The notes under the pieces: model-generated | Database searches by the model: none | Told to the model about the DNA's origin: nothing | The model's input: only the letters and a program-made list of their open reading frames with translations | Shown: positions 17,956-35,318 of the stretch, in pieces | Position numbering within the stretch: position 1 is the first letter of the stretch | Layout of the letters: the number at the start of each line of letters is the position of its first letter | DNA from: Proteiniphilum propionicum | GTDB lineage: Bacteria > Bacteroidota > Bacteroidia > Bacteroidales > Dysgonomonadaceae | Direction: 5' to 3' | Assembly (NCBI RefSeq): GCF_022267555.1 | Contig: NZ_CP073586.1 | Coordinates: 1,550,001 to 1,614,000 of the forward strand | Length of the DNA stretch: 64,000 nucleotides | Position numbers and translations under genes: made by a program

Positions 17956-18482
17956 ATAATTGTATCAAAAAGAGTTTTCTGTTTGATATCTGTATCTGAT
18001 TCTGATGGAGTTGTTTTGTTTGAAGCTCTCTTTTTATTTTGTCTAATTACTTTTTTCGCTTTAGTTCTTGAGGCTTTATATTTTTTCAAGAAATCTTTAA
18101 GAGCTTCATCATTGAAATTAGAGGCACGTTTATCTATTCTTTCAATTAAATTCTCTTCTGTCATAAATATTAGTCTGAGAAAAGGGCTATTGCTCTGATT
18201 GAGAAGTATGCTTAACTCTTCTGCAAAATCATTATATAAATCAGAGTTTGGTTCATCTAATAATTTATTTGCAACTACAAGTATAGATACTTCTTTTTCT
18301 ATTTCGCCTAAACGTGCACATGCTCCAATGTTACCTAATGCTTGAAATAGATATTGAAGATCTCCTTCAAAGCCTTTTGTAAAAACTAATTCTTTGCCAT
18401 AAAAGCCATCAGAATATCCTCCATTAGAAATGGCTATCATCAACTTTAATCCTTCAGGAGTAATTTTAATTTCGTTTTTCAT
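17952..18482 (-). CDS. Hypothetical protein coupled to the membrane exonuclease
   Basis: A 176-residue soluble protein (start MKNEIKITPEGLKLMIAISN). The first 120 residues are helical and the last 50 are very basic (RTKAKKVIRQNKKRASNKTT), perhaps a nucleic-acid-binding tail. No family recognised. Its ATG lies only about 12 nt after the T tract of a structured RNA element, and its end overlaps the exonuclease start by 4 bp. The pair therefore seems to share one RNA-controlled transcript. A partner or regulator of the nuclease is plausible. Confidence 0.65.
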   Translation of the reverse strand: MKNEIKITPEGLKLMIAISNGGYSDGFYGKELVFTKGFEGDLQYLFQALGNIGACARLGEIEKEVSILVVANKLLDEPNSDLYNDFAEELSILLNQSNSPFLRLIFMTEENLIERIDKRASNFNDEALKDFLKKYKASRTKAKKVIRQNKKRASNKTTPSESDTDIKQKTLFDTIM

Positions 18483-18631
18483 AGTAAAATAAAAAACCTC
18501 TCAAGCGTGTGCCCACCGGAATTGAATACCGGAATCCGATTATCTACGGATTACACGCCTGAGAGGCTTTCCTTTGTGTTTCAATTTGTGGGCAAAAGCA
18601 AAGATAACAAATGTTTCAAAATATAAAAAAA
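18480..18631 (-). repeat. 152-bp direct repeat, copy 1 (promoter, RNA leader, start codon)
   Basis: About 94% identical (9 differences seen) to 35,167-35,318, same orientation, no gaps. It spans from the start codon of the downstream gene to the A/T-rich region upstream of the promoter. Differences cluster in one loop, the lower stem and the spacer before the ATG. Confidence 0.92.
18491..18592 (-). ncRNA. Structured leader RNA or small RNA, copy 1
   Basis: The -7 box TATCTTTG at 18599-18606 puts the start near 18592. The predicted fold is a long stem (18553-18566 with 18497-18510) enclosing two adjoining hairpins: AATCCG/CGGATT with an 8-nt loop, and CCGG/CCGG with the T-loop-like TATTCAATT. 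The long stem is followed by TTTTTT, so it can act as a terminator. A 5' segment GCCCAC (18588-18593) can also pair with GTGGGC (18511-18516) inside the structure, giving a pseudoknot or a competing fold. An A-rich linker joins them. I do not recognise an Rfam family. It could be an attenuator, a riboswitch or a free small RNA. Confidence 0.7.
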
Positions 18632-19021
18632 TATAATATATTTAATCTTACTCTAAAATCATCATTATTTATTAGGATAAAATGTTTTTAACTCTAATTC
18701 CTAATTCTTTTATCATGCTTTTTAAGCATAAAAACACAACTTTACCCTCAAAAACAACGATATTTCACCTCTTTTTCACCTCATGAAATCATAAGTACCT
18801 GATAACTTGCTTTTAAGCCTTTTGAATATCTATTCCAAAATCAGTGTCAGGTTACTCTGCCCGACCCGCTCTGACTTAGGGTTGCAATTGCACCCCCTCC
18901 CGCCCCGGGGAAATGTGACCTGCGCGACCAGCCACACCGAGCCACAGTAGCGGTTTACAGGCACAATGAAAAGCTTTCAGAGGTCTACTGAAGGCTTGGG
19001 TTGATAATGAGTAATGGTTGC
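18632..19021. other. Gene-free stretch with a GC-rich island beside the terminase
   Basis: No credible gene is visible. An AT-rich left part contains the palindrome ATGCTTTTTAAGCAT (18714-18728). The right part (about 18,850-18,965) is strikingly GC-rich for this phage, with the near-palindrome GGGTTGCAATTGCACCCC and a run of C/G around 18,890-18,910. It lies just downstream of the terminase gene and might be a packaging (cos/pac) site or a foreign insert. Confidence 0.4.
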
Positions 19022-20722
19022 TTAACCGGCGCTTATTGAAGTGGATGCTCCTAATCGCTTGTTATTAACTGCTGCAAGGTAGTTCCTGCGACATAATAGA
19101 TATTTAAAAGCATCGGTGAAGTTTGTCGACTCTTTAGGTAATCGATGTGCCGGGAGTCCATCGGTTTTCTTTTCTTTCACAATCATGTTACCACCGGATC
19201 GCATATTGCGAGTTTTGGTTTTAGTTTTCTCAAGCTGAGATTTAAGGTTAGGACATGCAGATCTATCGATAAGTAATTGAGGTAAGATCTGATTCTTGCC
19301 ACTCATTAATTCCATCATGAAGTTATATTCGGCATTGCTGCCGATGTTAGCCTGGCCGATGGACATGAGCTGAACTGTCCAACCGGTACGCTTGCCGTCG
19401 CCATCTACTTCAATGGCACGTTTGATCTGACTGGCCACATCCTGACCAATCTTCTTGTATGAGTTAGCTGCTCTGTCATAATAAAGCTTCAGGCGCTTGC
19501 GCTGGTGTGGTTTAAAGTACCGGATAAACTCATCGGCCAACTCACGTATGTAGTTGGGTGGAAGAGTGTACATCTCCTTAAGAATTCGCATCTTGTTAAG
19601 CTTTGTTTGCGATACAAGGAACCAAAGTGTATTGCCAACATCCAGTCCACCTTCAAGTGTAATACGAGTGTCAAGGTGTTTGAGTTCGCGACAATCAGGC
19701 TCTTCTCCAAACTTAAGGGTATCTATGTAATCATAGTTGGTGCCATCGTTATAGAAGTGCCTTTCCTGCAATCCTGCATAGAACATTGATACACTTGATA
19801 GCTTTGGTATAATTGACAGTATTGAAGAACTTACGCCTTCAAGCCCCACACCAAACTCATCATCAAACCATCCCAGGCTTAATATATCTGCGTTGACAAA
19901 TGAGCTGGCAATCCAGAAGAATGATGTTTGTTTTCGGCATTTAACCCAGCGTTCTTCCCATCGTTGCATGTTGCGCCCTGCAAGGTTCACCTCACGCTTG
20001 TTATTCGTTGCCAGGGCATTTGCATATTCCTTTTTTGTTTCGTTGTAAACGAAGCCTGTTTGAATGAGATTAAGGATCTTCTCCTTATCATTCATCTCAG
20101 CATACTTCAACAGCCAGTCGTGTTCACCAATATTGTTTGGATCAGGCATATCGGTAGTGAAAGTAATAGATCTGTAGAATGCAGAATCGCCAAACCTAAC
20201 TTTATAACCACGTACGGCTTTAAGGATGTTTGATATACGTTGCTGTGGAAAGTATTTCACTTCATCACCAAACATACCCACGTAACTATTACCGGCACCA
20301 ATAGCAGGTCTGTCAAGCGAAATAAATGTGAAGTTGAACCCGGTGAAGAATACCATGGTGTGCTTCCATGAAGAAACCTTATTATACATTTTATTCTTCC
20401 ATTCTTTTGGAGGTTCTCTGTTGATTACATAATGAATATCTTCTTCCCAGCCTTTTATTCTGAATCCTTCCAGGAGCGATGGTATTACGTTTTTATGCAA
20501 GTTGGTATATGTATCACTCACAAATGCGAATGGAGCACCGGCACACTCAAATGCAGCTTCTTGGATACGTTCAACAAGTATATCTACAGTCTTGGAGGTA
20601 CCACGCCCGGCAATAAGCGCCAGCACCCTGGGCATCATTATAGCAAGAAGTTGAGAGAGCCAGTTACTGAATCTCACTTCAACATCTTCACGCTTCGTGT
20701 CTAGTTTTCTTTTCCTGCTCAT
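19022..20722 (-). CDS. terL: Phage terminase large subunit
   Basis: About 566 residues from the ATG at 20722. The ATPase domain has a Walker A variant ALIAGRGTSKT (about 35-45), the segment FAFVSDTYTNL, and a Walker B-like VGMFGDEVKYF (about 150). The C-terminal nuclease half includes LEGGLDVGNTLWFLVSQ, whose Asp begins the RNase H-like fold. This motor cuts concatemeric DNA and pumps it into the prohead through the portal. The start overlaps the upstream 209-residue gene by 35 bp. A decayed copy of the GFNFTFISLDRPAIG segment occurs at 35.37-35.41 kb. Confidence 0.93.
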   Translation of the reverse strand: MSRKRKLDTKREDVEVRFSNWLSQLLAIMMPRVLALIAGRGTSKTVDILVERIQEAAFECAGAPFAFVSDTYTNLHKNVIPSLLEGFRIKGWEEDIHYVINREPPKEWKNKMYNKVSSWKHTMVFFTGFNFTFISLDRPAIGAGNSYVGMFGDEVKYFPQQRISNILKAVRGYKVRFGDSAFYRSITFTTDMPDPNNIGEHDWLLKYAEMNDKEKILNLIQTGFVYNETKKEYANALATNNKREVNLAGRNMQRWEERWVKCRKQTSFFWIASSFVNADILSLGWFDDEFGVGLEGVSSSILSIIPKLSSVSMFYAGLQERHFYNDGTNYDYIDTLKFGEEPDCRELKHLDTRITLEGGLDVGNTLWFLVSQTKLNKMRILKEMYTLPPNYIRELADEFIRYFKPHQRKRLKLYYDRAANSYKKIGQDVASQIKRAIEVDGDGKRTGWTVQLMSIGQANIGSNAEYNFMMELMSGKNQILPQLLIDRSACPNLKSQLEKTKTKTRNMRSGGNMIVKEKKTDGLPAHRLPKESTNFTDAFKYLLCRRNYLAAVNNKRLGASTSISAG

Positions 20723-21317
20723 CAAACATTTCTATAAAATCAACATCTTCAACCTGGGCATCTCTCTTTAACCTTACCTTTTCATCTTCATTAATTTCCA
20801 TATTATCAATTCTTGCAGCGAGCGCGTCACGATCTGCAGCTTCAAGTTTAAGTACTGTTGGATCCAGTGAATACACCTTAATAGGCTTCTTATAAAACTC
20901 TTCAGGAAGTTTTGGAGCTTCCTCTTTGTCGAGACCTTTTGCTGCACGTGCCTGCATTATAAGTTTGCCATATACTTCCAGATCCTTTGAGGTTTTTGCT
21001 GTTTTAAGCGCAACCTGAGCTGCTTTAAACAGATCTTCAGCTATCATGTTATTCATAGCTTCACGCTCAATGCCATCGTCTGCATAGAATAGGTTAACGG
21101 CTTCGTCATACATTAGCCTGGCACGACGGTATTTTATTTCAAATGGTGGTCGCTGAATGAAAGAAATAGCGTTTTCTTTTCCATATTTTCGCCTAAGATT
21201 CATCAACAAATATAAAACATCAAGGTAGCGTTCGGCTTCTTTTGTGAGTTCTGCCTTGCTACCACCCTGAATGAAGTCCTGGAGCTCAGAAAAATAACTT
21301 CGTTTAAAATCCGCCAT
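20688..21317 (-). CDS. Phage packaging-region protein, unassigned
   Basis: A 209-residue, strongly helical, charged protein (start MADFKRSYFSELQDFIQGGS). No known motif. It sits between a small-terminase-like gene (14-bp overlap) and the large terminase (35-bp overlap), so it is translationally coupled to both. It may be part of the packaging complex or a terminase accessory factor. The C-terminus (DVDFIEMFDEQEKKTRHEA) is encoded in the overlap with terL. Confidence 0.6.
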   Translation of the reverse strand: MADFKRSYFSELQDFIQGGSKAELTKEAERYLDVLYLLMNLRRKYGKENAISFIQRPPFEIKYRRARLMYDEAVNLFYADDGIEREAMNNMIAEDLFKAAQVALKTAKTSKDLEVYGKLIMQARAAKGLDKEEAPKLPEEFYKKPIKVYSLDPTVLKLEAADRDALAARIDNMEINEDEKVRLKRDAQVEDVDFIEMFDEQEKKTRHEA

Positions 21318-21660
21318 AGATTATATCATTTTTAGCGTTCTCGAAATCTATATCAGAGCGAAGTTTATCGAGCCTTTGCGCTTGTATGGCATTGCTTCCG
21401 GACTTCTTTATCATATCAGCACCTTCCTTAGCCTGGCCAACCAATTGCCCACGATCATAATGATATTTAAGCTTGCTGTCTATCATCATGAAATAGAACA
21501 TGAATTCGTGCTTATCAATGTTGTAATACATTGCAATTTGCTCAGGTTTGTAACCTACATAAGCAAATTGATCATATTCTTCCCAGTTAATCTTTTCTAT
21601 CCATTCCGGAGCGGAATTGTCATCCCAGGTTGCTTGTTTAATTATATCTGAGCTCATCAT
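21304..21660 (-). CDS. Terminase small subunit-like protein
   Basis: A 118-residue protein. Residues 33-60 (FAYVGYKPEQIAMYYNIDKH) resemble the helix-turn-helix of small terminases, which recognises the packaging site, and a helical C-terminal part could oligomerise. The tail (RLDKLRSDIDFENAKNDIIY) may contact the large subunit. It lies two genes upstream of the terminase. The short length and HTH fit, but the identity is inferred from pattern and position. Confidence 0.6.
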   Translation of the reverse strand: MMSSDIIKQATWDDNSAPEWIEKINWEEYDQFAYVGYKPEQIAMYYNIDKHEFMFYFMMIDSKLKYHYDRGQLVGQAKEGADMIKKSGSNAIQAQRLDKLRSDIDFENAKNDIIYGGF

Positions 21661-21663
21661 AGT

Positions 21664-22338
21664 TTAATTTAATAGTCGGTCCACTTCAGCCAGTTCAATC
21701 TTCTTTTCTTCAAGTCTGCGATTGCGTTCTTCCAAAAGATGTGGTTTATCACCTTTGTTTATTTCGCTTTCTATACGCCAAACGTTATGTTGCAACTGCC
21801 TTTGTTTTAACACCAAATCTTTAATAGATAGGTTGTGAAGCTCTTTTATTTTGCGATAATGAGAGAAAACAGGATGTTTCCCCAGGAGCGAATTATGTTT
21901 TTTAAAGTAGGTAAGCTCAACGTAAATCATCCTGTTTTCATGGTAGTTATCGAGCAACTTTGCTGCAGTATCGGCGCATTCATCTGCCGTGGTGCAGTCA
22001 AAAAGTTTTTCGTGAAGATCTCGATATGCATAGAAAGAAGAAAATTTATCAGTTATCAGTGCTTTCAACTCAATTGGGCATGTTGGTGATGAGAGAAATG
22101 GAAATTCCTCTCTGAAGCTTTTTCCCTTTCGTGTCTGCCCCTTTGCCTTTGATTTTCTTTCACTATAGTTTAAATTGGCTATTTCTGCGAGTTTACTCAC
22201 AATTTTAGATTTGTTTTTATGTGGGTTGATTTTCATCAGCCTCACAAAGATCTTATCGGGGCAATATTTCTCAAGTAAATTTATACCGGAGAAAGGATCC
22301 TGATCGTTATCTAACCAATTCTGAATTTCTTCTTTCAT
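21664..22338 (-). CDS. Hypothetical phage protein in the head operon
   Basis: A 224-residue, Lys-rich, helical protein (start MKEEIQNWLDNDQDPFSGIN), with a probable coiled coil at the C-terminus (EERNRRLEEKKIELAEVDRL). No signal peptide and no recognised domain. It lies 3 bp from the small-terminase-like gene and 12 bp after the next upstream gene, so it is part of the packaging transcript. The function is unknown. Confidence 0.6.
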   Translation of the reverse strand: MKEEIQNWLDNDQDPFSGINLLEKYCPDKIFVRLMKINPHKNKSKIVSKLAEIANLNYSERKSKAKGQTRKGKSFREEFPFLSSPTCPIELKALITDKFSSFYAYRDLHEKLFDCTTADECADTAAKLLDNYHENRMIYVELTYFKKHNSLLGKHPVFSHYRKIKELHNLSIKDLVLKQRQLQHNVWRIESEINKGDKPHLLEERNRRLEEKKIELAEVDRLLN

Positions 22339-22350
22339 AGCAACATCAAA

Positions 22351-23037
22351 TTAAACTTCTCTATCTGCAAAGTATTTGGTTACTGCATGAGTTGATTTCT
22401 CGGAAACCCAAAACCAACGTTTATACTCCAAACATGAGTTGAGAGTTTTGTGTGATGGATTTTCACTCACTATTGGTAGAGTGAAAGTATCTTCCCCCCA
22501 AAACATTACAATTGGTAGTTTGTCTGCATGAAATTTATTAACGTATGCAGGAACAAAATCTTTATCTTCAATCTCAGGCATTTCTTCAAGGAGTTCAACA
22601 ATCTTGCTGCGCTCAAGCAGTACCGGTGCATGAACAGAATAATTCCATTTCCCATTTGATAGTGTTGCATATATAGCCTCCACGTCTGCTCTGGTGAAAT
22701 TGTTTACCGGGATGATTCCATCCATTAGAATGATTTCTTCATTTTCCCATGTAGAAATGAAATTCACAATTTTTTCAACCAACGATTCTTCACCATTTAG
22801 GTTGATGCTTGTTGGTATTGCAGAAAGTTCGCCCTGGTAATGTTTTACTATTTTATCAGCTGCTAACCTATGCAATTTGTCATTACCCATAATAAGTAGA
22901 ACAATTGGCTTACTGTTTACTTCTTCATCTTCCAGTACTTTCACTTCACTTTCCGAAATCTGAAGTTCCTTTTCCGCGATTATTTCAGCAGGTTTTGAAA
23001 TCGCTTCCTTTTTTGGTGCACTTTTTTTTGTTGTCAT
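22351..23037 (-). CDS. Hypothetical phage protein in the head operon
   Basis: A 228-residue protein with a low-complexity Lys/Glu/Ser-rich N-terminus (about 1-45) and a compact alpha/beta body that begins PIVLLIMGNDKLHRLAAD and includes NEEIILMDGIIPVNN. The body looks like a Rossmann-type fold without a clear nucleotide-binding loop. No family recognised. It is the first gene after the terminator at 23.12 kb, so it probably heads the packaging transcript. Confidence 0.55.
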   Translation of the reverse strand: MTTKKSAPKKEAISKPAEIIAEKELQISESEVKVLEDEEVNSKPIVLLIMGNDKLHRLAADKIVKHYQGELSAIPTSINLNGEESLVEKIVNFISTWENEEIILMDGIIPVNNFTRADVEAIYATLSNGKWNYSVHAPVLLERSKIVELLEEMPEIEDKDFVPAYVNKFHADKLPIVMFWGEDTFTLPIVSENPSHKTLNSCLEYKRWFWVSEKSTHAVTKYFADREV

Positions 23038-23103
23038 AAGTTCTATAATTTAATTATAATTAATGCTATACAAAGATGCAATTGCAACTACTGTTTTAAA
23101 AGG

Positions 23104-23139
23104 ACAAAAAAAAACCGCCAGGCATAACCGAGCGGCTTT
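23104..23139 (-). terminator. Rho-independent terminator after the capsid block
   Basis: A GCCGC/GCGG stem with neighbouring A/T pairs is followed on the minus strand by nine T residues. It lies after the 188-residue gene, and no gene occurs between 23,038 and 23,166. Confidence 0.7.
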
Positions 23140-23166
23140 ACACAACACAAAGCAAGTATTAAGAGA

Positions 23167-23733
23167 TTAAACTCCGGGATTTTCAACTACCGGTAATCCT
23201 AACGCTGCATTAATATCAGGATCATCAGTTTCAGGTAGCAAAGATTTAGAAATGTGTCCTAAAACACTTCCAATCATTTCCGAAACAAGCTGTACGGTAT
23301 GATTTTTACCTTCATTATTGTCCTGAGAATTTGCAGTCATAACAAGTGGAACACATGGCGTGCCAGCTATGCGGGCATCATCACCGTCGCATGGTATCAC
23401 AATTGCACCCAAATCACGATTGATATTGTTCTCAAGAAACGCATCAAAATCTTCGTCAGTGCCTGGGTGAGTGAAATCTACATGCTGAAGAAAACCTGCC
23501 TGGCGTGCTTCACCACTACTTTCCTGATAAGGATTAATAGTGCTTGCTGAAGCGTACACGCCTATAGGTTTTTTCCCTTCCTTGAATGTGAAGTCGGTCA
23601 CGCGAACATTTTTCAGATCGCGCTTATATACTGCCACATCATCCCAATCAAAAATCATAACAAATTTCTTCTTGGGAGTTGGCCGACCTTGATTCGCATC
23701 CTTTCGGGGTACTGAAACAAATGTATAAGGCAT
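23167..23733 (-). CDS. Phage structural protein next to capsid, unassigned
   Basis: A 188-residue beta-rich protein (start MPYTFVSVPRKDANQGRPT). No signal peptide or catalytic motif. It follows the major capsid gene and precedes a terminator, the place where decoration, head-completion or tail tube proteins often occur. The segment IGVYASASTINPYQESSGEA suggests a virion component. The assignment is by position only. Confidence 0.55.
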   Translation of the reverse strand: MPYTFVSVPRKDANQGRPTPKKKFVMIFDWDDVAVYKRDLKNVRVTDFTFKEGKKPIGVYASASTINPYQESSGEARQAGFLQHVDFTHPGTDEDFDAFLENNINRDLGAIVIPCDGDDARIAGTPCVPLVMTANSQDNNEGKNHTVQLVSEMIGSVLGHISKSLLPETDDPDINAALGLPVVENPGV

Positions 23734-23775
23734 TTTATTTAATTTTTATATTGTTCAACATTAATAAAATATAGC

Positions 23776-23793
23776 CGGGGGAGTTATCCCCCG
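23776..23793 (-). terminator. GC-rich hairpin between capsid and next gene
   Basis: CGGGGG and CCCCCG form a 6-bp stem with a short loop. The minus-strand tail is T-rich but interrupted, so it may be a partial terminator that reduces readthrough after the capsid gene, or an mRNA 3'-end protector. Confidence 0.55.
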
Positions 23794-23803
23794 ACTTTAT
23801 TGG

Positions 23804-25258
23804 TTATACACCACCTTCAGGCTCTTCAACAGGAGGCAGGTATGCAAACAGAGCTTCCTGAATTGCAAATCCGCAACCTTTACGGAACTCGATGAATACT
23901 TTCACATCGTAGTTAAGTACCTGCAGGTAGATCTTAACTTCGTTATGATTTTTGCTCATTGTGTGCTTGAAGTTCTCTTTTGGAGTAAGCACAAATGCAC
24001 CGGTGCCAATCATTCCATCCATTGGCTGGAAGTAGAAGTTTGTGAAGTCCAAACGGTTTTCATTCACATCCTGATTTTTGGTAGTCGGGAACTTGTCGCG
24101 ATAAGCCAAGTTATACAAGCGTACCAGGTCAGGGTCGATATATATCGGCAAACGTTTGTTGCGATATTTGGGAGCAATTGAAGAAACAATACCTTCAATA
24201 GACTCAAGAATGTTCTCACGAGAAAGAGCAACACCGTCAAGCAACCAAGTTACTTTGTTTCCAACATCAGCTTTCAACTTAGTAAGCTGAGTTACATATC
24301 CGTCCATAGATGCAAGAACATGCCCTTCAGAAGCTGCAGTTCCATCGCCAGCAGGCGTAAATTCAACAAATTCACCCTTTGCCATTGCCACCTGAAGATC
24401 TTCGGCCAATTTTGGCAGGATCAGTTCGTCAACGATGTATTTCACAATTGGCATCTGATCAGGTGTCAGATTTTCATCATACATGTAACCCAAATACTGA
24501 TCAATTATATCAGCAGGTTTAATTGGCTGGTTCACTTTCAAGAAGAAATTCTTAATAGTGATAGGTGAGAAAGTTACTTTACCGGAAGGTGTCCAGTAGG
24601 GAGTGAATTGCTGAAGTACAGAATCGATGTCAGCCTGAGCCGCACGCCATTCAGTTTTATCAGTTACGATAGTGGTCATGAATTGAGTGTCTGTCAGATC
24701 ACCCATGAGAGAGCGCATGATATCCACTTTTCCACCGGCTACATACTTACCAAACTCAGTTTGAAGTTCGGCTGTATCAATTGTTGTGTCGGTTGAATAC
24801 ATTGCACCAACATCACCACGAAAATACGCGTCAACGTATTTATTGTGAGCATACCCCATATTGGGCTTGAATTCTCTTTTTACGCCCATATTACCTACAG
24901 GAATTTCTTTTGGTTTGTCTGTTTCTTCTGTTTTAGAAAGTAATTCAACTTTCTTTTCAAGTTCTGCCTTTTCAGCGGCAGTTTCCTTTTTGCTGCTTAA
25001 AGCGGCATCGAGATCCGTTTTCATTTTGTCGAGCTGACTTCTCAGCGCGATCACATCTTCAGACTCAGCATCAATTTTAACACCGGCCTTTTCGGCTTCT
25101 GCCAATTCAGTTTCGAATTTGGTGACAAATTTGTCGCCCCATTCTTCTGTCAGCTTAGCCTTCATATCATCAGTTAAGAATGAACTACCTTCCTTATTTA
25201 CAGGAAGCTGGCTCATTCCTAATTTTGATAGAACTAATGCAAGAATTTGTTTAAACAT
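23804..25258 (-). CDS. Major capsid protein with N-terminal scaffold-like region
   Basis: A 484-residue protein. Residues 1-110 are acidic, Lys/Glu-rich coiled coil (LRSQLDKMKTDLDAALSS, KAELEKKVELLSK), like the scaffold (delta) domain of HK97-type capsids that the prohead protease removes. From about 150 onward, the beta-rich body (including TPYWTPSGKVTFSPITIKNF) fits a capsid fold. It follows an S49 prohead protease gene by 11 bp, the standard pairing. The likely cleavage lies between the coiled coil and KREFKPNMGYAHNKY, but the exact point cannot be read from sequence. Confidence 0.82.
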   Translation of the reverse strand: MFKQILALVLSKLGMSQLPVNKEGSSFLTDDMKAKLTEEWGDKFVTKFETELAEAEKAGVKIDAESEDVIALRSQLDKMKTDLDAALSSKKETAAEKAELEKKVELLSKTEETDKPKEIPVGNMGVKREFKPNMGYAHNKYVDAYFRGDVGAMYSTDTTIDTAELQTEFGKYVAGGKVDIMRSLMGDLTDTQFMTTIVTDKTEWRAAQADIDSVLQQFTPYWTPSGKVTFSPITIKNFFLKVNQPIKPADIIDQYLGYMYDENLTPDQMPIVKYIVDELILPKLAEDLQVAMAKGEFVEFTPAGDGTAASEGHVLASMDGYVTQLTKLKADVGNKVTWLLDGVALSRENILESIEGIVSSIAPKYRNKRLPIYIDPDLVRLYNLAYRDKFPTTKNQDVNENRLDFTNFYFQPMDGMIGTGAFVLTPKENFKHTMSKNHNEVKIYLQVLNYDVKVFIEFRKGCGFAIQEALFAYLPPVEEPEGGV

Positions 25259-25269
25259 TTCAATAAAAT

Positions 25270-28796: not shown

Positions 28797-28799
28797 TTG

Positions 28800-29297: not shown

Positions 29298-29376
29298 TTT
29301 TGATTTATTTATTCGCTAATTCTAATTTTTGCCTGTTTTTTAGAAATAGTCGGACTGTTGTTCTAATTTATTAAGT

Positions 29377-29703
29377 TTAAAACCACCCAAAGATCCAAGT
29401 TTCTGAATTTTTGGAATATGGTTCTGACATTGCGCTATTGTGCACAAAAGATTTCAGTTCACTGAATTTAGTTTTTAATTCTTCTGACGGGTTTTTGACA
29501 AAGAAAACAAGGCTCTCCCAGCCATCATCACATTTTTTGTCAAAGCCGTAAACCTTACATAATTCGGGATTTTTCCGTTCTTTCTCCTGCCATTCTCGCA
29601 TATCTTCGGGCCATGACGGGATATCAAGTTCCGGAAGTACTGTTTTTTTTAATTCGTTGAATACTTTGTATGCATTCTGTACATTCTTGAAATTTAGTGC
29701 CAT
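29377..29703 (-). CDS. Hypothetical phage protein
   Basis: A 108-residue, Lys/Glu/Trp-rich helical protein (start MALNFKNVQNAYKVFNELKK) ending in NSETWIFGWF. No motif recognised. It lies in the early region between two ASCH-like genes and is probably a small host-takeover or DNA metabolism protein, which is inference from location. Confidence 0.55.
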   Translation of the reverse strand: MALNFKNVQNAYKVFNELKKTVLPELDIPSWPEDMREWQEKERKNPELCKVYGFDKKCDDGWESLVFFVKNPSEELKTKFSELKSFVHNSAMSEPYSKNSETWIFGWF

Positions 29704-29761
29704 AATGTTATATTTATTTAATAATTATTTCGATCTCTCTCAAGCTTTGCCATGTTATTTA

Positions 29762-30442
29762 TTATTTACTTAGTTCGTAATCATACACCCATACCCAAGG
29801 GTTGCTCTCCCACAGAATTGAGTTGATAATTGAGGCATACGCTTCTTGTGGAGTAATAAACCAAACATCATTTATCGTAGGATCATCAACTTCATATCCA
29901 TATACACAGTGTGGTTCAATAGGTTGTCTAAATTGAATTACACCCTCTTTAATGCAATCATCATCGCTTATATTCTGCAATTTCTCTGCTCTAACTCCTG
30001 TAATCACAATGAAGTAACGTGCCGCACTTTCGGGCATGAATAGCTTGTTTATCTTTTTATCCCTATACTTGTTATATTTTTTATGAAATTCAAAAAGGTC
30101 GTCATAGTTGGCACAGAACCACGATGTATCTTCTGAATAGTCTTCTATTTTATCGTGTCCATAATAATAACCGTAACCTCCCGACCCTCGAAGAATAGCA
30201 TACTGATATGGCTCTTTCAAAAACACCACTTCGCCTACCTTGAATCGGGGTTTAAACTCCTTATGTTCTCCTGTTTCTTCTACTGTTCCCCAAAAACCAG
30301 TCATATCGCTTGACATTGGGTAAATAGTGTGATTATGCAGCCCATCATCGTCAGGTTGTGGCGCAATGATTCTTCGTGTTTGTTTTTTCGACCCCTGAAC
30401 TGTCCGGTTGAAATTTGGTTCTGTAAATAGTATTCCTTTCAT
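29762..30442 (-). CDS. Phage ASCH-domain protein
   Basis: A 226-residue protein with the ASCH pattern of many phage early genes: MKGILFTEPNFNRTVQGSKK QTRRII at the start, FKVGEVVFLKEPYQYAI (about 90), and RYFIVITGVRAEKLQNISDD (about 140). It ends with aromatic-rich SILWESNPWVWVYDYEL. Family knowledge: ASCH domains resemble PUA domains and some act on N4-acetylcytidine or RNA. The role in this phage is unknown. It overlaps the following small gene by 4 bp. Confidence 0.8.
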   Translation of the reverse strand: MKGILFTEPNFNRTVQGSKKQTRRIIAPQPDDDGLHNHTIYPMSSDMTGFWGTVEETGEHKEFKPRFKVGEVVFLKEPYQYAILRGSGGYGYYYGHDKIEDYSEDTSWFCANYDDLFEFHKKYNKYRDKKINKLFMPESAARYFIVITGVRAEKLQNISDDDCIKEGVIQFRQPIEPHCVYGYEVDDPTINDVWFITPQEAYASIINSILWESNPWVWVYDYELSK

Positions 30443-30684
30443 AATTTTTCTATTTTTACAATTATATGTCTTAAATATCCGAAACTGGAACTATAAGCCT
30501 TTCTTATAGGGCAATAATTGCCTTCTTGCATTAGTTTGTCGTCATTAATAGGAAGATAAGATCCTAACCATATTGATGGTAAATGTGACTCTGGATTGAC
30601 TTCTATTATCTTGCCGCTTTCATCGCAAATGAAACTTTGAAAATCTTGTCCTGAATTGACTAATGTTACTTTTATTTTATCCAT
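30439..30684 (-). CDS. Small hypothetical phage protein
   Basis: 81 residues from ATG at 30684; an in-frame TTG 6 bp upstream is a less likely start. The sequence (MDKIKVTLVNSGQDFQSFIC, then GKIIEVNPESHLPSIWLGSY) is beta-rich, with no membrane segment. No family recognised. It overlaps the ASCH-domain gene by 4 bp, so the two are probably translated together. Confidence 0.55.
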   Translation of the reverse strand: MDKIKVTLVNSGQDFQSFICDESGKIIEVNPESHLPSIWLGSYLPINDDKLMQEGNYCPIRKAYSSSFGYLRHIIVKIEKL

Positions 30685-30686
30685 GA

Positions 30687-30839
30687 TCAATCCTCCTTTT
30701 CTTTACTTATATCTTCTATTGTTCTCATATTATTATTTTTGCAATTATTACTATTACCCATACAGCAATTAGCGCTGTAATTACTTTTGTTGCGATGTCA
30801 GCACCATGAGCAAAGAGGATGTTTTCTATCTTTTTCATG
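30687..30839 (-). CDS. Very small ORF, possible early protein
   Basis: A 50-codon frame starting MKKIENILFAHGADIATKVI and ending in an acidic/basic tail. It fills the gap between the next gene and the terminator at 30.88 kb, with ATG-like spacing and a TGA stop just before the next start. No conserved motif; translation is uncertain. Confidence 0.3.
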
Positions 30840-30859
30840 TTGTTAATATTGAGTGTTTA

Positions 30860-30896
30860 AAAAATAACAGCCGGAGCTTCACAGCTTAGGCTGTTG
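30860..30896 (-). terminator. Rho-independent terminator in the early region
   Basis: AACAGCC and GGCTGTT (30867-30873 with 30890-30896) make a 7-bp stem with an inner hairpin, followed on the minus strand by ATTTTTT. It ends the early transcript that begins at the Cro-like gene, or attenuates it before the ASCH/VapE block. Confidence 0.7.
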
Positions 30897-30908
30897 TATG
30901 AAAAAAAG

Positions 30909-31208
30909 TTATGTGTAAAACTGCTTTGCAATTAATAATGATCTGTATAGATTAGATCTGAATTCTATTATGTGCGTTGGTCCCGGAATCATGCAGGAAA
31001 TGTTTATTATGATTGAATCAGAATTTCGATAATATCTATCAATAGCTTCTACATTGCTTTTAATTGTTCTCAGTATATCGTAGAATTCAATTGTGCTCAC
31101 ATTAAGACTGTCGAATCGTTCAAGCATCTGCTTAAGCTTTTGAGCTTTGCCGTGTGCAAGTTTGGATTCAGAATTGTTTGTACAGTATAATGAAAGCGTT
31201 AGTCTCAT
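30909..31208 (-). CDS. Hypothetical phage protein
   Basis: A 99-residue protein (start MRLTLSLYCTNNSESKLAHG) with a helical centre and IIINISCMIPGPTHIIEFRS near the end. No family recognised. It overlaps the preceding gene by 4 bp (ATGA), so it is translationally coupled, and it is the last gene before an early terminator. Confidence 0.55.
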   Translation of the reverse strand: MRLTLSLYCTNNSESKLAHGKAQKLKQMLERFDSLNVSTIEFYDILRTIKSNVEAIDRYYRNSDSIIINISCMIPGPTHIIEFRSNLYRSLLIAKQFYT

Positions 31209-31795
31209 ATTGTTTTAGATTTAGCCAGTTCTCTTATCTTCTCAATTGGTGAGTATCTCATCAGGCTAGGATGTTTGTTGTAATCAGGCAGCTGTGAGGG
31301 TGTGTCACGTCCTGATTGTTTTTGCTGTTCTTCAATTTCCTTTTCTATCTTAGTAAAAGCCTCTTTTCTCTCGTTGTTATAACCGAAAAAGCTCGATGAA
31401 ATGCGTTGTGTGTCTATGCTTCCGTAGAACGTTCCGTAACGGCTATCAAGGATGTAATTGAAAAGAAGCTTCATATCCGATAGTCTGAAATGACTATATT
31501 TTGCGTAAAGGATATAAGAGAGTTGTTTGATCACTCCCGGCTGAAGGCCTTTGTTGATATTTAGAAAATCATTCAGGAAATTCAGCCAGCGTTCAAGGTA
31601 TTCGTAACCGGCATAAGATTTCTTCAGCTTGTATAATTCTGTAAGAAGTTTAAGAGTAATATCTGAGGTAGTGTACACATCATTGAAGTTATTCACGAAG
31701 TCGTAATTCACTATCAGTTGCTCAGGTGACTGGTCCTGAAGAAATGCAGGCCAGCTTGGGTATCTATCAAATATTTGCTGTTTTAAATCACTCAT
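31205..31795 (-). CDS. Early phage protein resembling DUF6633
   Basis: A 196-residue helical protein. The segment ILYAKYSHFRLSDMKLLFNY followed by RYGTFYGSIDTQRISSSFFG matches a family common in Bacteroidetes phages and conjugative elements that I remember as DUF6633; the number is from memory. Members sit with replication genes, so a replication helper role is possible. It overlaps the upstream 61-residue gene by 8 bp and the downstream one by 4 bp. Confidence 0.6.
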   Translation of the reverse strand: MSDLKQQIFDRYPSWPAFLQDQSPEQLIVNYDFVNNFNDVYTTSDITLKLLTELYKLKKSYAGYEYLERWLNFLNDFLNINKGLQPGVIKQLSYILYAKYSHFRLSDMKLLFNYILDSRYGTFYGSIDTQRISSSFFGYNNERKEAFTKIEKEIEEQQKQSGRDTPSQLPDYNKHPSLMRYSPIEKIRELAKSKTI

Positions 31796-31973
31796 GATCG
31801 TAAATTGTTAGTTGTACTGCGAATCCAAATTCATATAATTGTTTCTCTATATTGCTGTCTATTACATTAGGCCGGTAGATGGTGCGAGTCGGTGTTATTA
31901 TTTTATATCCTTTCTTCCTGGCTCGGTAACATAAGTTATACCTGCGCTTAACGTGTGGATTAACTTTTGCCAT
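31788..31973 (-). CDS. Small basic hypothetical protein
   Basis: 61 residues, strongly basic N-terminal half (MAKVNPHVKRRYNLCYRARK KGYKI). It could bind nucleic acid. It overlaps both neighbours (8 and 14 bp), which supports it being a real, tightly packed early gene. Function unknown. Confidence 0.55.
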   Translation of the reverse strand: MAKVNPHVKRRYNLCYRARKKGYKIITPTRTIYRPNVIDSNIEKQLYEFGFAVQLTIYDHE

Positions 31974-32238
31974 AAAGCACAGATTTAATTGCTTTTACTA
32001 TGTGTTTGTAAGTTGATTTATTTTTCAGCTTGATAATCAGAAAACCCTGGTCAAAGTTGATTCTGGTTACTTCAAGATTCGCTCCGTAGAGATTATTGAT
32101 ATCATCAGCCATTTGTGAAGTGATCTTCTTTGTTGTGAATACCTGGTATTTGTTATCTCTGGGGCGCTTGGATATAGAAGTAAAACTGTCTTCTGTTTTC
32201 AGAAATACGTGTGTCTCTTTGCTTAATTCTTTTAACAT
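31960..32238 (-). CDS. Hypothetical early phage protein
   Basis: A 92-residue alpha/beta protein (start MLKELSKETHVFLKTEDSFT) with a helical end (HIVKAIKSVLYGKS). No family recognised. It overlaps the next gene by 14 bp and follows the 173-residue gene by 2 bp, inside the compact early operon. Confidence 0.55.
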   Translation of the reverse strand: MLKELSKETHVFLKTEDSFTSISKRPRDNKYQVFTTKKITSQMADDINNLYGANLEVTRINFDQGFLIIKLKNKSTYKHIVKAIKSVLYGKS

Positions 32239-32240
32239 GA

Positions 32241-32729
32241 TTATAAAGTGTTTCTATTTAATGTGAATGTTTCATCTTTTACTGGAGCTTCATCACCCGG
32301 CTCATCGTTATTAAATTGAAAATCCTTAGGTGCGAAAATTGATTTGTATCTGGATGTGATATAGAATTCAAGATATTCAAGTGCCGTTTCTTCATTTTTC
32401 TTAGAGATCCTAAAAAGCTTTTTTAATCGAAGTCTTTCTTCCACCGGTACCAGAACTATATTATATACTTCGAACAAGAATTCTTTATAATCGCTCCAAG
32501 CTTCAGAAAATTCAACACTATCAAAAGGCAGCTCAATTTCGTCACGCTCCGGATCAGGAACAAACATTCCAAATTCTTCAATTAACACGCCAATATTTTT
32601 AACATTGCGTTGAAAATTCTTTTTTATTTTATTTATGTCTGATCCATTTCTCAAGCCATTCATAACAACAGCGTCATCATCGATTAACTTTTGAATTGAC
32701 TCCACCAGTACTTTCCACTTTTGTTTCAT
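32241..32729 (-). CDS. Hypothetical early phage protein
   Basis: About 162 residues from the ATG at 32729; an ATG at 32762 would extend it and deepen the overlap with the DnaA-like gene to 86 bp, compared with 53 bp for the chosen start. The protein is helical and acidic/basic mixed, with EYLEFYITSRYKSIFAPKDF near the end. No family recognised. The overlap itself suggests coupled translation of the two genes. Confidence 0.55.
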   Translation of the reverse strand: MKQKWKVLVESIQKLIDDDAVVMNGLRNGSDINKIKKNFQRNVKNIGVLIEEFGMFVPDPERDEIELPFDSVEFSEAWSDYKEFLFEVYNIVLVPVEERLRLKKLFRISKKNEETALEYLEFYITSRYKSIFAPKDFQFNNDEPGDEAPVKDETFTLNRNTL

Positions 32730-32979
32730 ATCTTCTAATAAAATTGTGTAAATCTCTATCATTTACGCTATACAGTTCTTCTGCCTTATCAATTAAATAG
32801 CGCGTTTGTCGATTGTTTCTATTTGAGCACCATCCTATATCTCTTATGCTATAATTATTCATATATGCGAAGAGCATCCATGCCTTTCTTGCAGTTATCC
32901 AGGGCTCAGCTCTGCATCGCGAGCGAATTAGTGAGCGTTCATTGGGATCAAAAACTAAGTTGAATAATTTCTCTATCAT
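32677..32979 (-). CDS. DnaA domain IV-like HTH protein
   Basis: A 100-residue protein. WITARKAWMLFAYMNNYSIR followed by DIGWCSNRNNRQTRYLIDKA resembles the DnaA C-terminal domain that binds DnaA boxes. There, the pattern is ARxxAMYLxRE, then IGxxFGxRDHSTVxHA. The HTH and basic loop are retained while the ATPase part is missing. It could recognise the phage origin, perhaps the iteron-like sites at 27.3 kb, or titrate host DnaA. It overlaps the LuxR-type gene by 4 bp. Confidence 0.5.
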   Translation of the reverse strand: MIEKLFNLVFDPNERSLIRSRCRAEPWITARKAWMLFAYMNNYSIRDIGWCSNRNNRQTRYLIDKAEELYSVNDRDLHNFIRRYETKVESTGGVNSKVNR

Positions 32980-33371
32980 AATACATCAGAAAAAGTTAAG
33001 TCTAATTCGTCTCTCCTGTTCCTAGATCTAAGTCTTTCTGTTACATTTGTACTTCTACGTGATCTGTTGCGTGTAAATGCATCTGTTGACTGCATGATAT
33101 CACCAGACATATAAATAATTAACAAACAAACAGCTACAATATTTTTAAGTGGAGAAAGCTCCATACTTATGCCAAAATGTGTGCAGAAATACCAGGCAGA
33201 AAATTCATTAACGCTACGGCATTCTGTTTTTTCGAAAATATTGCGAACATGATTTTCAACCGTATGCACCGATATATATAATCGATCTGCTACTGTTTTT
33301 TTGCATGCTCCCCAGGCAAGTAATTTGCCAACCTGAGTTTCTCTTCTTGTTAACTTGGCCTCGGCATTCAT
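32976..33371 (-). CDS. LuxR/GerE-type HTH protein with a membrane segment
   Basis: About 131 residues from ATG at 33371, preceded by a G-rich stretch; an upstream TTG is less likely. Residues 4-60 are a GerE HTH: LTRRETQVGKLLAWGACKKT VADRLYISVHTVENHVRNIF. A hydrophobic helix follows (NIVAVCLLIIYMSG, about 77-90), then a basic tail (RNRSRRSTNVTERLRSRNRR). A DNA-binding domain tethered to the membrane is uncommon. It lies directly after the Cro-like gene in the early operon and may control later phage genes. It overlaps the DnaA-like gene by 4 bp. Confidence 0.8.
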   Translation of the reverse strand: MNAEAKLTRRETQVGKLLAWGACKKTVADRLYISVHTVENHVRNIFEKTECRSVNEFSAWYFCTHFGISMELSPLKNIVAVCLLIIYMSGDIMQSTDAFTRNRSRRSTNVTERLRSRNRRDELDLTFSDVL

Positions 33372-33373
33372 GG

Positions 33374-33607
33374 CTATTCCCCCCAAACGTCAGATTTTTT
33401 TACTTTGTATTTCGCAAAAATCTTTTCAATAGCATCTTTCTCTTCAACATTAGGAATGATGTTGCCGTTAAGACGCTGATACCATTGCGAGCGGGCAGAA
33501 ATACCCAATACTTCTTTTATCTCTTCTCTCGCTTTGCGGATATCCCGGTATGGGATCATGCCGTAACCCTTTTTAAAACTGTGGATGTTTTGAGTCTTGT
33601 TTGCCAT
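33374..33607 (-). CDS. Cro-like early regulator
   Basis: About 77 residues from the ATG at 33607 (a TTG 9 bp upstream is less likely). It starts MANKTQNIHSFKKGYGMIPY, and DIRKAREEIKEVLGISARSQ WYQRLNG looks like a small helix-turn-helix. It diverges from the CI-like gene across an operator region, the standard position of Cro. It is the first gene of the early operon and has a -7 box TATCTTTG at 33,690-33,697. Confidence 0.7.
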   Translation of the reverse strand: MANKTQNIHSFKKGYGMIPYRDIRKAREEIKEVLGISARSQWYQRLNGNIIPNVEEKDAIEKIFAKYKVKKSDVWGE

Positions 33608-33625
33608 ATCTTTCAAAAAATAGTC

Positions 33626-33697
33626 TATATTTGCTATTTACAACTGTTCGTTTATTCCGTACATTTGTACCGTTTAAAACGAACACTTGCAAAGATA
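33626..33697. promoter_or_regulatory. Divergent CI/Cro promoter-operator region
   Basis: Plus-strand -7 box TATATTTG (33626-33633) serves the CI-like gene, and minus-strand -7 box TATCTTTG (33690-33697) serves the early operon. Between them lie TGTTCGTTT (33645-33653) and its reverse complement AAACGAACA (33677-33685), with a smaller GTACATTTGTAC palindrome inside. The sites overlap both expected starts, as in a lysogeny switch. Confidence 0.75.
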
Positions 33698-33745
33698 AAC
33701 AACTGTTGGGATAAACCAACAAGTGTAGGGTTAAAATATGTGAAT

Positions 33746-34135
33746 ATGAACGATATTTCTGAAAGAATAAGGTATCTGGTTAATATTGAAGCTAATGGAA
33801 GTGCTGATAAATTTGGTGTGAAAACTGGGTTTTCTGGCCAAACTATAAGAAATGTCACAGAAACGAAGCGAAATAAACCGAGTTTAGACCTTGTAAGAAA
33901 TATTTTGTCAACATTTGTTTATGTTAACCCTGATTGGTTATTGTTCGGCAAAGAGCCATTGAAAAGAAGAGATAACTCACCTGATAACAATATATCAGAA
34001 TTAACACCAGAGTGGCTATTAAAGCGTATTGAGGAGTTGGCAATCGAGAATAATGATCTCAAGAAAGAGATATGCAGATTGACCAGCTCCAAAAAAAATG
34101 ATCTGCAGAATGCTACTGCAGAACATGATATTTAA
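33746..34135 (+). CDS. CI-like XRE repressor
   Basis: 129 residues from the ATG at 33746; the frame is open further upstream, but that part crosses the operator and Cro gene and is not protein-like. Residues 3-65 form an HTH (SERIRYLVNIEANGSADKFG, then GFSGQTIRNVTETKRNKPSL, then NPDWLLFGKEPL). A C-terminal coiled coil (LLKRIEELAIENNDLKKEI) may dimerise it. There is no LexA/S24 protease domain, so induction would not be by RecA-driven self-cleavage. It is one of two HTH repressors in this prophage. Confidence 0.85.
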   Translation: MNDISERIRYLVNIEANGSADKFGVKTGFSGQTIRNVTETKRNKPSLDLVRNILSTFVYVNPDWLLFGKEPLKRRDNSPDNNISELTPEWLLKRIEELAIENNDLKKEICRLTSSKKNDLQNATAEHDI

Positions 34136-34269
34136 TTAAGGTATAAGTATGAAAAACCCTACCGATTATATACCGATAAGGTGTAACTGTTTGAATGATA
34201 AGGTTAATTGTGGTGCGCCAGGTACCTCCAAGTTCATGATCCAGCACTGCTTGTTAGTGTTGGATTTTT

Positions 34270-35169
34270 TTATTTCTCTCTATATTTACTGCTTGACTGT
34301 TGACCGACAGGGTTGTTTTTACATAGGTTGCCTTCAAATATTCTATTTAAGTCATCTTCAGACAGAGTTGTTATGCTGTAGCCATCAAATCTCAATTTGT
34401 TGAGGGTCTCCATTTTTCTTGGTCCTGGATTATCTCCAATTATAACAAAATGAGTTTTTCTGGTTATATTAGAGTTGATATCTGCACCCATTAATTTTAA
34501 CTTCCTCGCCATCTTTATTCTATCCGAAAAATCACCTGTGATTACCACCTTCCTGTCATAGAATGGACTTGATTTATCGGCTTTCGATAGATCTTTCTTA
34601 TATAAATCCGGATCAAGTTTTTTATCAGCGTAAAGTCCTTTTTTGGGTTTGTCACGCTCTTTGTCAATAATTTGTTGATCCGGAGTAATTCCATTTATAT
34701 GTTTTAACCAAATCTGTGCGGTTGCTCTCGCATCTTCCAATGCATTATGGTGGTTTACAAATTTAATATTGTAGGATTTTGCTAAAATTGGCAAGCTTAT
34801 TTTACCACAATCTAAATCAAAGCAAGTATCACTGTAAGTGTAATCAGGTATTTCAATAAAATAATAGGAAAGCGTCTTATGTAGGATCGATCTATCCGTT
34901 GGTGCATTATGCATTACCAAATGTTGGTCGGAGAAATATTTTTCAATTTCTGGCCAAATCTCTTCGAAGGTGGGGGAGTTTTCCGTATGACTTGGATAAA
35001 TCTTATGGATAATTTTTTGAGTTTCCCCGTATCTATTTCCTGGGGGTTGAATGAGATGGTAAACTTCTTCTACTGCTACATTGTTTTTAACGGCTACAAT
35101 TCCAACAGAACATGCGAACTGATCGCTATCGGCATTTTCGAAATCAACGGCAACAAAATCGTATTTCAT
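34270..35169 (-). CDS. DEDDh 3'-5' exonuclease with BRCT domain (soluble)
   Basis: A 299-residue protein. Exo I is FVAVDFENADSDQFACSVGI (about 5-25), Exo II is LVMHNAPTDRSIL (about 85), and Exo III is VNHHNALEDARATAQIWL (about 137), keeping DEDDh residues. After a linker a BRCT domain runs from about 200 to 275 (DRKVVITGDFSDRIKMARKL, HFVIIGDNPGPRKM). No transmembrane helix, unlike the paralogue at 16.8 kb, and the two are clearly diverged. Its start lies about 12 nt after the terminator-like helix of the second RNA element. The gene converges on the CI-like gene, about 134 bp apart. Confidence 0.9.
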   Translation of the reverse strand: MKYDFVAVDFENADSDQFACSVGIVAVKNNVAVEEVYHLIQPPGNRYGETQKIIHKIYPSHTENSPTFEEIWPEIEKYFSDQHLVMHNAPTDRSILHKTLSYYFIEIPDYTYSDTCFDLDCGKISLPILAKSYNIKFVNHHNALEDARATAQIWLKHINGITPDQQIIDKERDKPKKGLYADKKLDPDLYKKDLSKADKSSPFYDRKVVITGDFSDRIKMARKLKLMGADINSNITRKTHFVIIGDNPGPRKMETLNKLRFDGYSITTLSEDDLNRIFEGNLCKNNPVGQQSSSKYREK

Positions 35170-35318
35170 AGAAAATTAAAAAACCTCTCAAATGTGTGCC
35201 CACCGGAATTGAATACCGGAATCCGATTAATTACGGATTACACGCCTGAGAGGCTTTCCATTGTGTTTCAATTTGTGGGCAAAAGCAAAGATAATAAATG
35301 TTTTAAAATATAAAAAAA
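35167..35318 (-). repeat. 152-bp direct repeat, copy 2
   Basis: Ungapped match to 18,480-18,631, 16,687 bp away, same orientation. It contains promoter, leader RNA and start codon of the exonuclease-BRCT gene. Upstream of it lies a terminator and a decayed terminase segment. Confidence 0.92.
35178..35279 (-). ncRNA. Structured leader RNA or small RNA, copy 2
   Basis: The -7 box TATCTTTG lies at 35286-35293. The fold matches copy 1: outer stem, two hairpins, GCCCAC/GTGGGC pairing and TTTTTT end. Compared with copy 1, changes fall in the 8-nt hairpin loop (TAATTAAT instead of TAGATAAT), the A-rich linker and the lower stem, where one G-C becomes G-U and one pair is lost. Both hairpin stems and the T-loop-like sequence are unchanged. 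Confidence 0.7.

Follow-up and report, generated by a model that had tools for sequence, protein, structure and literature searches.

A predicted double-pseudoknot leader RNA shared by unrelated cargo genes of prophages and their viral relatives

Two near-identical elements in a Proteiniphilum propionicum prophage, both lying in the window analysed here (the whole stretch of 64,000 nucleotides), are predicted to encode a structured RNA that recurs ahead of many different cargo genes. Judged from sequence alone, the fold is secure and under selection as a structured RNA, and the same kind of evidence supports a promoter-like box at a regular spacing, a position ahead of genes and a broad diversity of cargo. 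The reading that we favour, tentatively, is that the RNA acts in cis as a 5'-terminal leader common to self-contained prophage cargo units ('morons') in the order to which the window belongs and in viral relatives, and this suggests that these phages share one RNA device for cargo expression.

The original prediction described twin 152-bp elements about 94% identical, each holding a promoter and a folded RNA of about 100 nt. This description holds, with the repeat now measured at 165 nt per copy (18472-18636 and 35159-35323, both minus-strand) and 93% identity, or 94% by BLAST over 159 nt. The 3.9-Mb genome holds no further full copy, the one other BLAST match spanning just 26 nt. Each copy runs from promoter box through folded RNA to an ATG, and the covariance model (R2) places the RNA at 18492-18595 (99.7 bits) and 35179-35282 (95.9 bits), with the match ending 9 nt before the start codon in each case. 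The RNA is longer than first described because a 5' strand, GCCCAC...AAUUGAA, belongs to the fold. None of 200 shuffled sequences folded as well as the two copies (z-scores -4.8 and -3.4); their reverse strand folds too (-3.1 and -2.8), as is typical of palindromes. The proposed gene order also stands, in that copy 1 leads a 176-aa protein (17952-18482) followed by a 378-aa DEDDh (RNase_T)-BRCT protein with a membrane anchor assigned by eye (16819-17955), and copy 2 leads a soluble 299-aa DEDDh (RNase_T)-BRCT protein (34270-35169), all on the minus strand. The two exonucleases are as diverged as had been claimed, aligning at 31% over 155 residues. The 176-aa protein had no match in Pfam, PHROGs or NCBIfam at the limits used and one in PADLOC (E 0.036). 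An intrinsic-terminator-like hairpin follows the copy-1 unit on the same strand at 16777-16798 (two terminator-like sites in 3 kb, compared with 1.2 +- 1.2 in shuffles), and inspection by eye found no hairpin with a T-run on the same strand after the copy-2 gene.

The predicted fold is a double pseudoknot beginning at the putative +1, together with a long helix, P1, that encloses the hairpins P2 and P3. A 5' strand, GCCNA, pairs with UNGGC to form P0, and the nucleotides which follow pair with the P3 loop. In copy 1, read on the minus strand, GCCCA at 18589-18593 (the predicted +1/+2) would pair with UGGGC at 18511-18515, and AAUUGAA at 18580-18586 with the loop UUCAAUU of the CCGG-loop-CCGG hairpin P3 at 18516-18532; P2 occupies 18533-18552, and the core parts of P1 occupy 18554-18566 (5' arm) and 18497-18509 (3' arm, including the purine tract GAGAGG). 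Selection on the RNA had been suggested as likely, and a want of covariation in the stems named as a sign of chance association or a DNA-level repeat; covariation proved strong, with changes on both sides in 24 of the 32 base pairs of the alignment. Across the 40 distinct matches 97.7% of cells are paired, compared with 76.6% after shuffling, and the covariation value of 0.571 (0.164 shuffled) was reached by none of 500 shuffles. Position 4 of P0, for example, is C-G in 30 leaders, A-U in five, G-C in four and unpaired in one. The loop pseudoknot has a mean Watson-Crick run of 5.32 (3.52 +- 0.17 in shuffles, 0 of 2000 reaching the observed value), and the run is at least five in 29 of 37 leaders. 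G-U cells number 48 and A-C cells only eight, and one strand therefore matters as RNA. In L007 the reverse strand holds a 62-codon open frame, but a coding role for that strand was rejected given that covariation and the G-U asymmetry both indicate RNA.

Only two unpaired columns are at least 90% conserved, U49, invariant across all 40 leaders, and column 62, with A in 36 of them; this leaves little for an aptamer pocket, and a conserved unpaired pocket of the riboswitch type was thus not found. The core pairs GUG/CAC, AA/UU and CCGG/CCGG are almost invariant, partly owing to search patterns that fixed them. Four pairs in a row have their purine in the 3' arm of P1 in 155 of 157 standard cells, and AGG, GAG or GGA occurs within this arm in 37 of 40 leaders; pairs 39-45 are mixed, and pair 32 is biased the opposite way (37 of 39). 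Counted from the alignment, the purine tract lies mostly 14-20 nt from the AUG, and the stretch between P1 and the AUG is open, AU-rich and mostly 9-15 nt long. P1 is the last helix, the one originally described as terminator-like. After its purine tract, a T-rich tail (five T in 8 nt) is present in 25 of the 40 distinct leaders and an unbroken T5 in 15, both window copies being among the leaders with a T-run. The topology may be akin to that of HDV-like ribozymes, in which a 5' strand likewise pairs inside an enclosing helix; no candidate cleavage site was seen here.

With the covariance model 43 matches were obtained, 40 of them distinct; they come from 32 records (20 viral contigs, 10 genomes and two phage records), eight of which hold two to four copies. 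In phages with several copies, such as L020, L024 and L055, the core nucleotides are kept whilst P1 differs. The final set has 33 sources. Pattern scans of viral contigs returned 9, 17, 0, 3 and 32 stretches; L050, L053, L054, L060 and L062 from the last of these were dropped for want of a model match, L025, L030 and L031 from the 11 stretches of the single genome-contig scan were dropped too, and duplicates were excluded (L016, L018, L019, L023, L027, L063, L064 and the G-handle copies except L007 and L066). The counts retain L034, L035 and L007, although these seem rearranged or degenerate. Searching whole genomes with the model gave matches in 5 of the 101 genomes of the family, in 3 of 393 from the order and, for the class, in 1 of 395, namely the window's own, and the first model matched 2 of 295 order genomes; these counts are lower bounds because the filters were strict and few candidates were scored per genome. 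A DNA search within the family matched 8 of 101 genomes, four of them only over the upstream promoter part. Compared with named phages by DNA similarity, the window copy found short matches in five records, MT836345 holding two copies; the L059 element found eight similar records, of which the two scanned with the model, MT836345 and MT835612, were confirmed, and the L028 element found none. No Rfam 15 family reached its gathering threshold in six related loci, the window yielding only a tRNA, and membership of a known family was rejected; the best match at copy 2, Phe_leader, was well below threshold (E 0.36, 19.3 bits against 55). Within the titles and abstracts of the papers listed, no treatment of this leader RNA was found.

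Ahead of the RNA stands a -7 promoter box, TATCTTTG, which in copy 1 (18599-18606, minus strand) matches at 6 of 6 positions and lies 5 nt before GCC, and which is matched in copy 2 at 35286-35293 on the same strand. A box with at least 5 of 6 matches precedes 34 of the 40 distinct leaders (six spacings examined; background 3% per position), at a spacing of 4 in 25 of those 34. The six leaders without one include L066, whose score is too low because the model start is misplaced there. Given that the sigma-A box of flavobacteria is reported at -12 to -5 (PMC9723704), a spacing of 4 would make the first paired G the +1 position.

In 33 of 43 leaders an ORF of at least 40 codons starts 5-20 nt past the match, as it does for 240 of 2150 points chosen at random within these loci; ten leaders have no such ORF. 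The first ORFs, 39 in all, form 19 clusters or singletons. In type III toxin-antitoxin systems the antitoxin RNA lies ahead of one toxin family, and an identity of this kind was rejected given such diversity. Beyond the window the cargo includes HSDR_N-type and HIRAN proteins, small membrane proteins and the PD-Lambda-5 defence pair, amongst others. A prophage moron has its own promoter and terminator and is inserted among phage structural genes; the -7 box supplies the first of these in most leaders. Among the contigs annotated, L037 has its cargo a short way ahead of a tape-measure match, as does L043 when inspected by eye, and L041 has it between tail genes and an integrase match. In Porphyromonas phage018a, the same HSDR_N gene sits between adaptor/amidoligase and neck/tape-measure genes without the RNA.

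It had been proposed that the RNA controls an exonuclease-BRCT module, possibly serving defence. Defence remains a plausible theme for part of the cargo, with the L039 leader preceding genes that match both PADLOC models, PD-Lambda-5 A and B, and one weak AbiP match elsewhere, but the dedicated module did not survive. Rather than an enrichment downstream of model matches, an exonuclease-BRCT gene was found within 4 kb in only 4 of 43 loci (the two window copies, L033 and L029), as the first gene in two and the second in two, and as a general rule the specific module was rejected. Whilst those four loci fit it, the other 39 have no such gene within 4 kb as far as their sequence reached (three of the 43 have less than 1 kb downstream), and L021 has a DEDDh gene upstream of its leader rather than downstream. 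The loci fetched for two exonuclease-BRCT homologues within the same family, G021 and G049 (G049 has internal stops), showed no RNA. That the leader is dedicated to this protein is scarcely credible.

How might such a leader work? We propose that every cargo unit would have its own housekeeping promoter, of the form TAnnTTTG, and that transcription would begin with the initial G of GCCNA or right next to it. The 5' strand would then fold back on UNGGC and the following nucleotides on the P3 loop, thereby locking the transcript's 5' end in a helix whilst the AU-rich stretch to the AUG stays open. A locked end would be expected to resist 5'-end-dependent decay, and an unpaired start region would keep the start codon free, so that the outcome may be steady cargo expression from a prophage that otherwise keeps its late genes silent. 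In E. coli, 5'-terminal stem-loops of the ompA and papA type stabilise mRNA, and the likeness lies in the base-paired transcript end; here, by contrast, a conserved double-pseudoknot family precedes unrelated genes, and stabilisation would be its predicted consequence. That 5' structures are stabilising in E. coli has been ascribed to the preference of RppH and RNase E for single-stranded 5' ends, and loss of RppH there alters only about 10% of mRNAs (PMC3997798). Several observations count against a simple cap: the near-invariant core pairs exceed what end protection should need, the purine tract of P1 is not accounted for by it, the T-rich tail leaves room for attenuation, and some leaders lack a nearby ORF or a 5-of-6 promoter box. 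That the leader forms a new RNA class, a protein-free, cap-like 5' knot on defence or exclusion genes of temperate Bacteroidales-type phages, possibly with a purine tract that senses ribosome state, is a speculative extension that we consider doubtful.

The main rival to the locked-end leader is a translational switch, in which the core or the P1 purine tract would be recognised by a protein of phage or host origin, or through the ribosome's state, and cargo translation toggled between lysogeny and induction; ribosomes without bS21, reading strong Shine-Dalgarno tracts, are one example. It would suit the conservation of the core in multi-copy phages whose P1 differs, and the purine bias beside the mixed pairs 39-45, and it finds parallels in reports that bS21 loss in F. 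johnsoniae increases translation of strong Shine-Dalgarno reporters (PMC9976891) and that the prophage defence gene tha needs switching off at induction (PMC11087260). The tract is, however, buried in a long helix and far from the AUG for ordinary Shine-Dalgarno use, pair 32 is biased the other way and the partner protein is hypothetical, and we judge a switch to be rather unlikely. The fold could instead dock the 30S subunit in an IRES-like manner and set the AUG in the P site, substituting for the Shine-Dalgarno contact. The narrow distance from P1 to the AUG in 33 of 43 leaders, compared with 11% at random points, is consistent with docking, as is the reported failure of Bacteroidia ribosomes to recognise Shine-Dalgarno sequences (PMC9976891), but ten leaders have no such ORF nearby and one Porphyromonas phage carries the same HSDR_N gene without the RNA, making this an unlikely role.

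If some transcripts ended at P1 and its T-rich tail, a little short of the gene, the element would be an attenuator or the source of a short RNA. The tails, including those of both window copies, would fit, but even the loose form is missing from 15 of 40 leaders and AT-rich leaders are common in such genomes; moreover, P1 can form together with both P0 and the loop pseudoknot, so that neither of these pairings offers an evident antiterminator, and we hold attenuation to be improbable. The put RNA of phage HK022 is also structured and also stands where phage transcripts begin, a likeness drawn here by description only, and a put-like element might act on its own RNA polymerase to pass terminators in the cargo region. 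A predicted position at the extreme 5' end and the several copies in some records would agree with this, although the short cargo units and the terminator-like hairpin after the copy-1 unit make it very improbable. Least in keeping with an RNA function would be a DNA-level repeat, such as a recombination or cassette-exchange site, whose palindromes are incidental to RNA. In the window both flanks of the leader copies differ whilst the leader itself is conserved, and in L034 the 5' arm and the inner segment are found on opposite strands, as such a site might produce; the excess of G-U over A-C cells nevertheless largely refutes a DNA-only palindrome, and with the regular distances to promoter box and AUG we consider a DNA-level repeat highly unlikely.

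Returning to the locked-end leader, other prophage defence loci offer partial parallels. In BstA/aba and Tha/ith an element or regulator is tied to a prophage defence gene (PMC8585504, PMC11087260), but aba, which overlaps the start of its gene, appears to be DNA-based and cognate to one protein (PMC8585504) and ith is a protein, whereas here an RNA fold precedes many unrelated proteins; this diversity and the strand asymmetry led us to reject a self-immunity element of the BstA/aba type. PD-Lambda-5 has been validated as a defence system in E. coli, the accessible part of that report mentioning no RNA leader for it (PMC9519451), and the pair in L039 is one cargo among many. HMP_4078, a 109-bp palindromic candidate structured RNA from human microbiomes, mostly in Bacteroidetes and near phage genes, has D5_N and integrase domains as its reported neighbours (PMC8040213), the comparison with our leader being by description only.

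Many genes for defence against phages reside in prophages, and how their expression is maintained in the lysogen without harm to the phage has been worked out for few of them, BstA and Tha among these. A structured leader common to unrelated cargo would offer a single, directly testable handle on the expression of prophage defence genes, and the covariance model provides a finder of cargo genes whose function is unknown. Since this leader also stands ahead of a pair matching a validated defence system, the small membrane proteins, the HIRAN and HSDR_N proteins and the membrane-anchored exonuclease-BRCT protein become candidates for roles in defence or exclusion.

The two repeat copies of the original prediction are present as 165-nt leaders on the minus strand, at 18472-18636 (copy 1) and 35159-35323 (copy 2), and are 93% identical; a search of the 3.9-Mb genome returned no third full copy, the one extra match spanning 26 nt. 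Each copy runs from a -7 box (TATCTTTG) through the folded leader to an ATG lying 9 nt past the model match. Copy 1 precedes a 176-aa protein and a membrane-anchored RNase_T-BRCT protein, with a terminator-like hairpin 3' of this unit, and copy 2 precedes a soluble RNase_T-BRCT protein. These exonuclease-BRCT proteins share 31% identity over 155 residues and are as divergent as had been proposed. The suggested prophage setting is supported by PHROGs matches (head maturation protease, tape measure protein) and by the presence of copy 1 on two viral contigs (L018 and L023). A small gene at 16461-16748 on the plus strand, HTH-like by eye, is convergent with the copy-1 unit near its terminator-like hairpin. 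Elsewhere, a 97-nt direct repeat (57297-57393 and 62202-62298, 80% identical) marks the starts of two large minus-strand genes, perhaps paralogues.

The earliest relatives came out of DNA-level comparison with 101 genomes from the window's family. The first model, of 5 sequences, reached a second family within the order, with a copy on a contig also recorded as Candidatus Azobacteroides MAG (L029), in which the enclosing helix P1, the hairpin P2 and the loop pairing have a different sequence with pairing kept. Further relatives came from contigs, viral and genomic, scanned by pattern, from a second covariance model (R2), and from searches of whole genomes and phage records, giving 43 matches (40 distinct sequences) from 33 sources in 32 records, two loci (L017 and L042) sharing one contig. 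Of these records, 20 are IMG/VR contigs, 10 are genomes and the remaining 2 are phage records, the named genomes being Bacteroidales or Bacteroidia going by title. Between 2 and 4 leader copies occur in 8 of the 32 records, and genome-wide match counts are lower bounds given the strict search filters.

Written out for P0, P1, P2 and the second inner hairpin P3, standard pairs fill 97.7% of 1277 cells and both sides change at 24 of 32 pairs, in an alignment that is biased to the model's own helices and whose covariation counts are inflated by kinship. The stems covary in the covariance-model check proposed earlier, scoring 0.571 against 0.164 for shuffles and at most 0.098 with strands slid. 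Pairs fixed by the first search patterns covary in model or looser-pattern matches (CCGG/CCGG to CUGG/CCAG), and one locus (L066) carries a compensatory GUG/CAC to CUG/CAG change. Unlike the helices favoured by the alignment, P0 and the loop pseudoknot are absent from the covariance model. P0 is formed by the 5' strand GCCNA and by UNGGC, which lies within P1; the fourth P0 pair is C-G in 30 sequences, A-U in 5 and G-C in 4. The pseudoknot, between the nucleotides after GCCNA and the P3 loop, has a mean Watson-Crick run of 5.32 compared with 3.52 ± 0.17 in shuffles (0 of 2000 as high), and runs of at least 5 in 29 of 37 distinct pairs. Because G-U cells outnumber A-C cells (48 vs 8), the sequences speak for an element acting as RNA on the leader strand. 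Rfam searches of the window and related leader loci gave no family match for the leader; HMP_4078, a candidate structured RNA from human microbiomes (PMC8040213), is a possible counterpart. The Prevotellaceae MAG locus L034:1494-1611 has its inner core on the other strand from the GCCCA arm, which looks like an inversion between the P1 arms and may have either a biological cause or one in the assembly.

A first ORF was found in the searched range for 39 of 43 loci, and sorting these ORFs gave 19 clusters or singletons. The exonuclease-BRCT gene to which the leader was thought to be dedicated lies downstream in 4 of 43 loci, twice as first gene and twice as second, and one locus (L021) has a DEDDh gene upstream. 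A BLAST-linked cluster of 10 comprises three HIRAN and seven HSDR_N-type proteins (Pfam calls for L028 and L051, the other five by likeness), a cluster of 7 holds small proteins, several of which by eye end in a membrane segment at the C terminus, and four more proteins form a trypco2-like cluster (two members run against Pfam, both below cut-off). Other cargo includes proteins of the FtsK_gamma-HNH and P22_AR_N types, a pair matching PD-Lambda-5 A (E 2e-145) and B (E 1e-117), and a weakly AbiP-like protein (E 4e-6, 25 bits); many cargo proteins had no match in family and defence profile searches. HicA/HicB-like genes, so named by annotation for L128 and by eye for L066, L041, L052 and L007, recur close to these leaders or in the same place in a phage. 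A degenerate leader copy (L035:572-668) lies directly 5' of a gene that is glutamyl-tRNA synthetase-like by eye and apparently not phage cargo. In Porphyromonas phage018a, the one scanned among four similar Porphyromonas phages, the HSDR_N gene sits next to HicAB, with head genes on one side and tail genes on the other, and the 11 kb scanned gave no model match; the RNA is therefore an optional part of the cargo unit.

A TAnnTTTG box (at least 5/6 letters; background 3% per position) lies 3-5 nt 5' of GCC in 34 of 40 distinct elements, at 4 nt in 25 of these 34. As the corresponding Flavobacterium box is placed at -12 to -5 (PMC9723704), the predicted +1 would be the first paired G or an adjoining nucleotide. 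At the other end, an ORF of ≥40 codons begins 5-20 nt past 33 of 43 matches, compared with 240 of 2150 random points. By eye, CGCCATTT occurs directly 3' of P1 in a subset of leaders (L020, L024, L040, L051, L056, L059 and others).

The simplest common consequence of this anatomy would be that the fold locks the 5' end of the transcript. Single-stranded 5' ends are preferred by RppH and RNase E, although RppH loss affects only ~10% of E. coli mRNAs (PMC3997798). Three features do not follow from a locked 5' end: the near-constant core pairs, the T-rich tail in 25 of 40 leaders, and the purine tract of the P1 3' arm (purine in 155 of 157 standard cells over four pairs in a row, against mixed pairs 39-45 and an opposite bias at pair 32). 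This SD-like tract sits within the P1 helix, and its pyrimidine-purine bias (A6 columns 35-38/109-112) persists at all four pairs despite C-G/U-A exchange. In view of these three features, the leader may have a regulated, ribosome-linked or attenuating role. The RNA itself is best read as a leader used by cargo units in general, rather than as a component of an exonuclease system.
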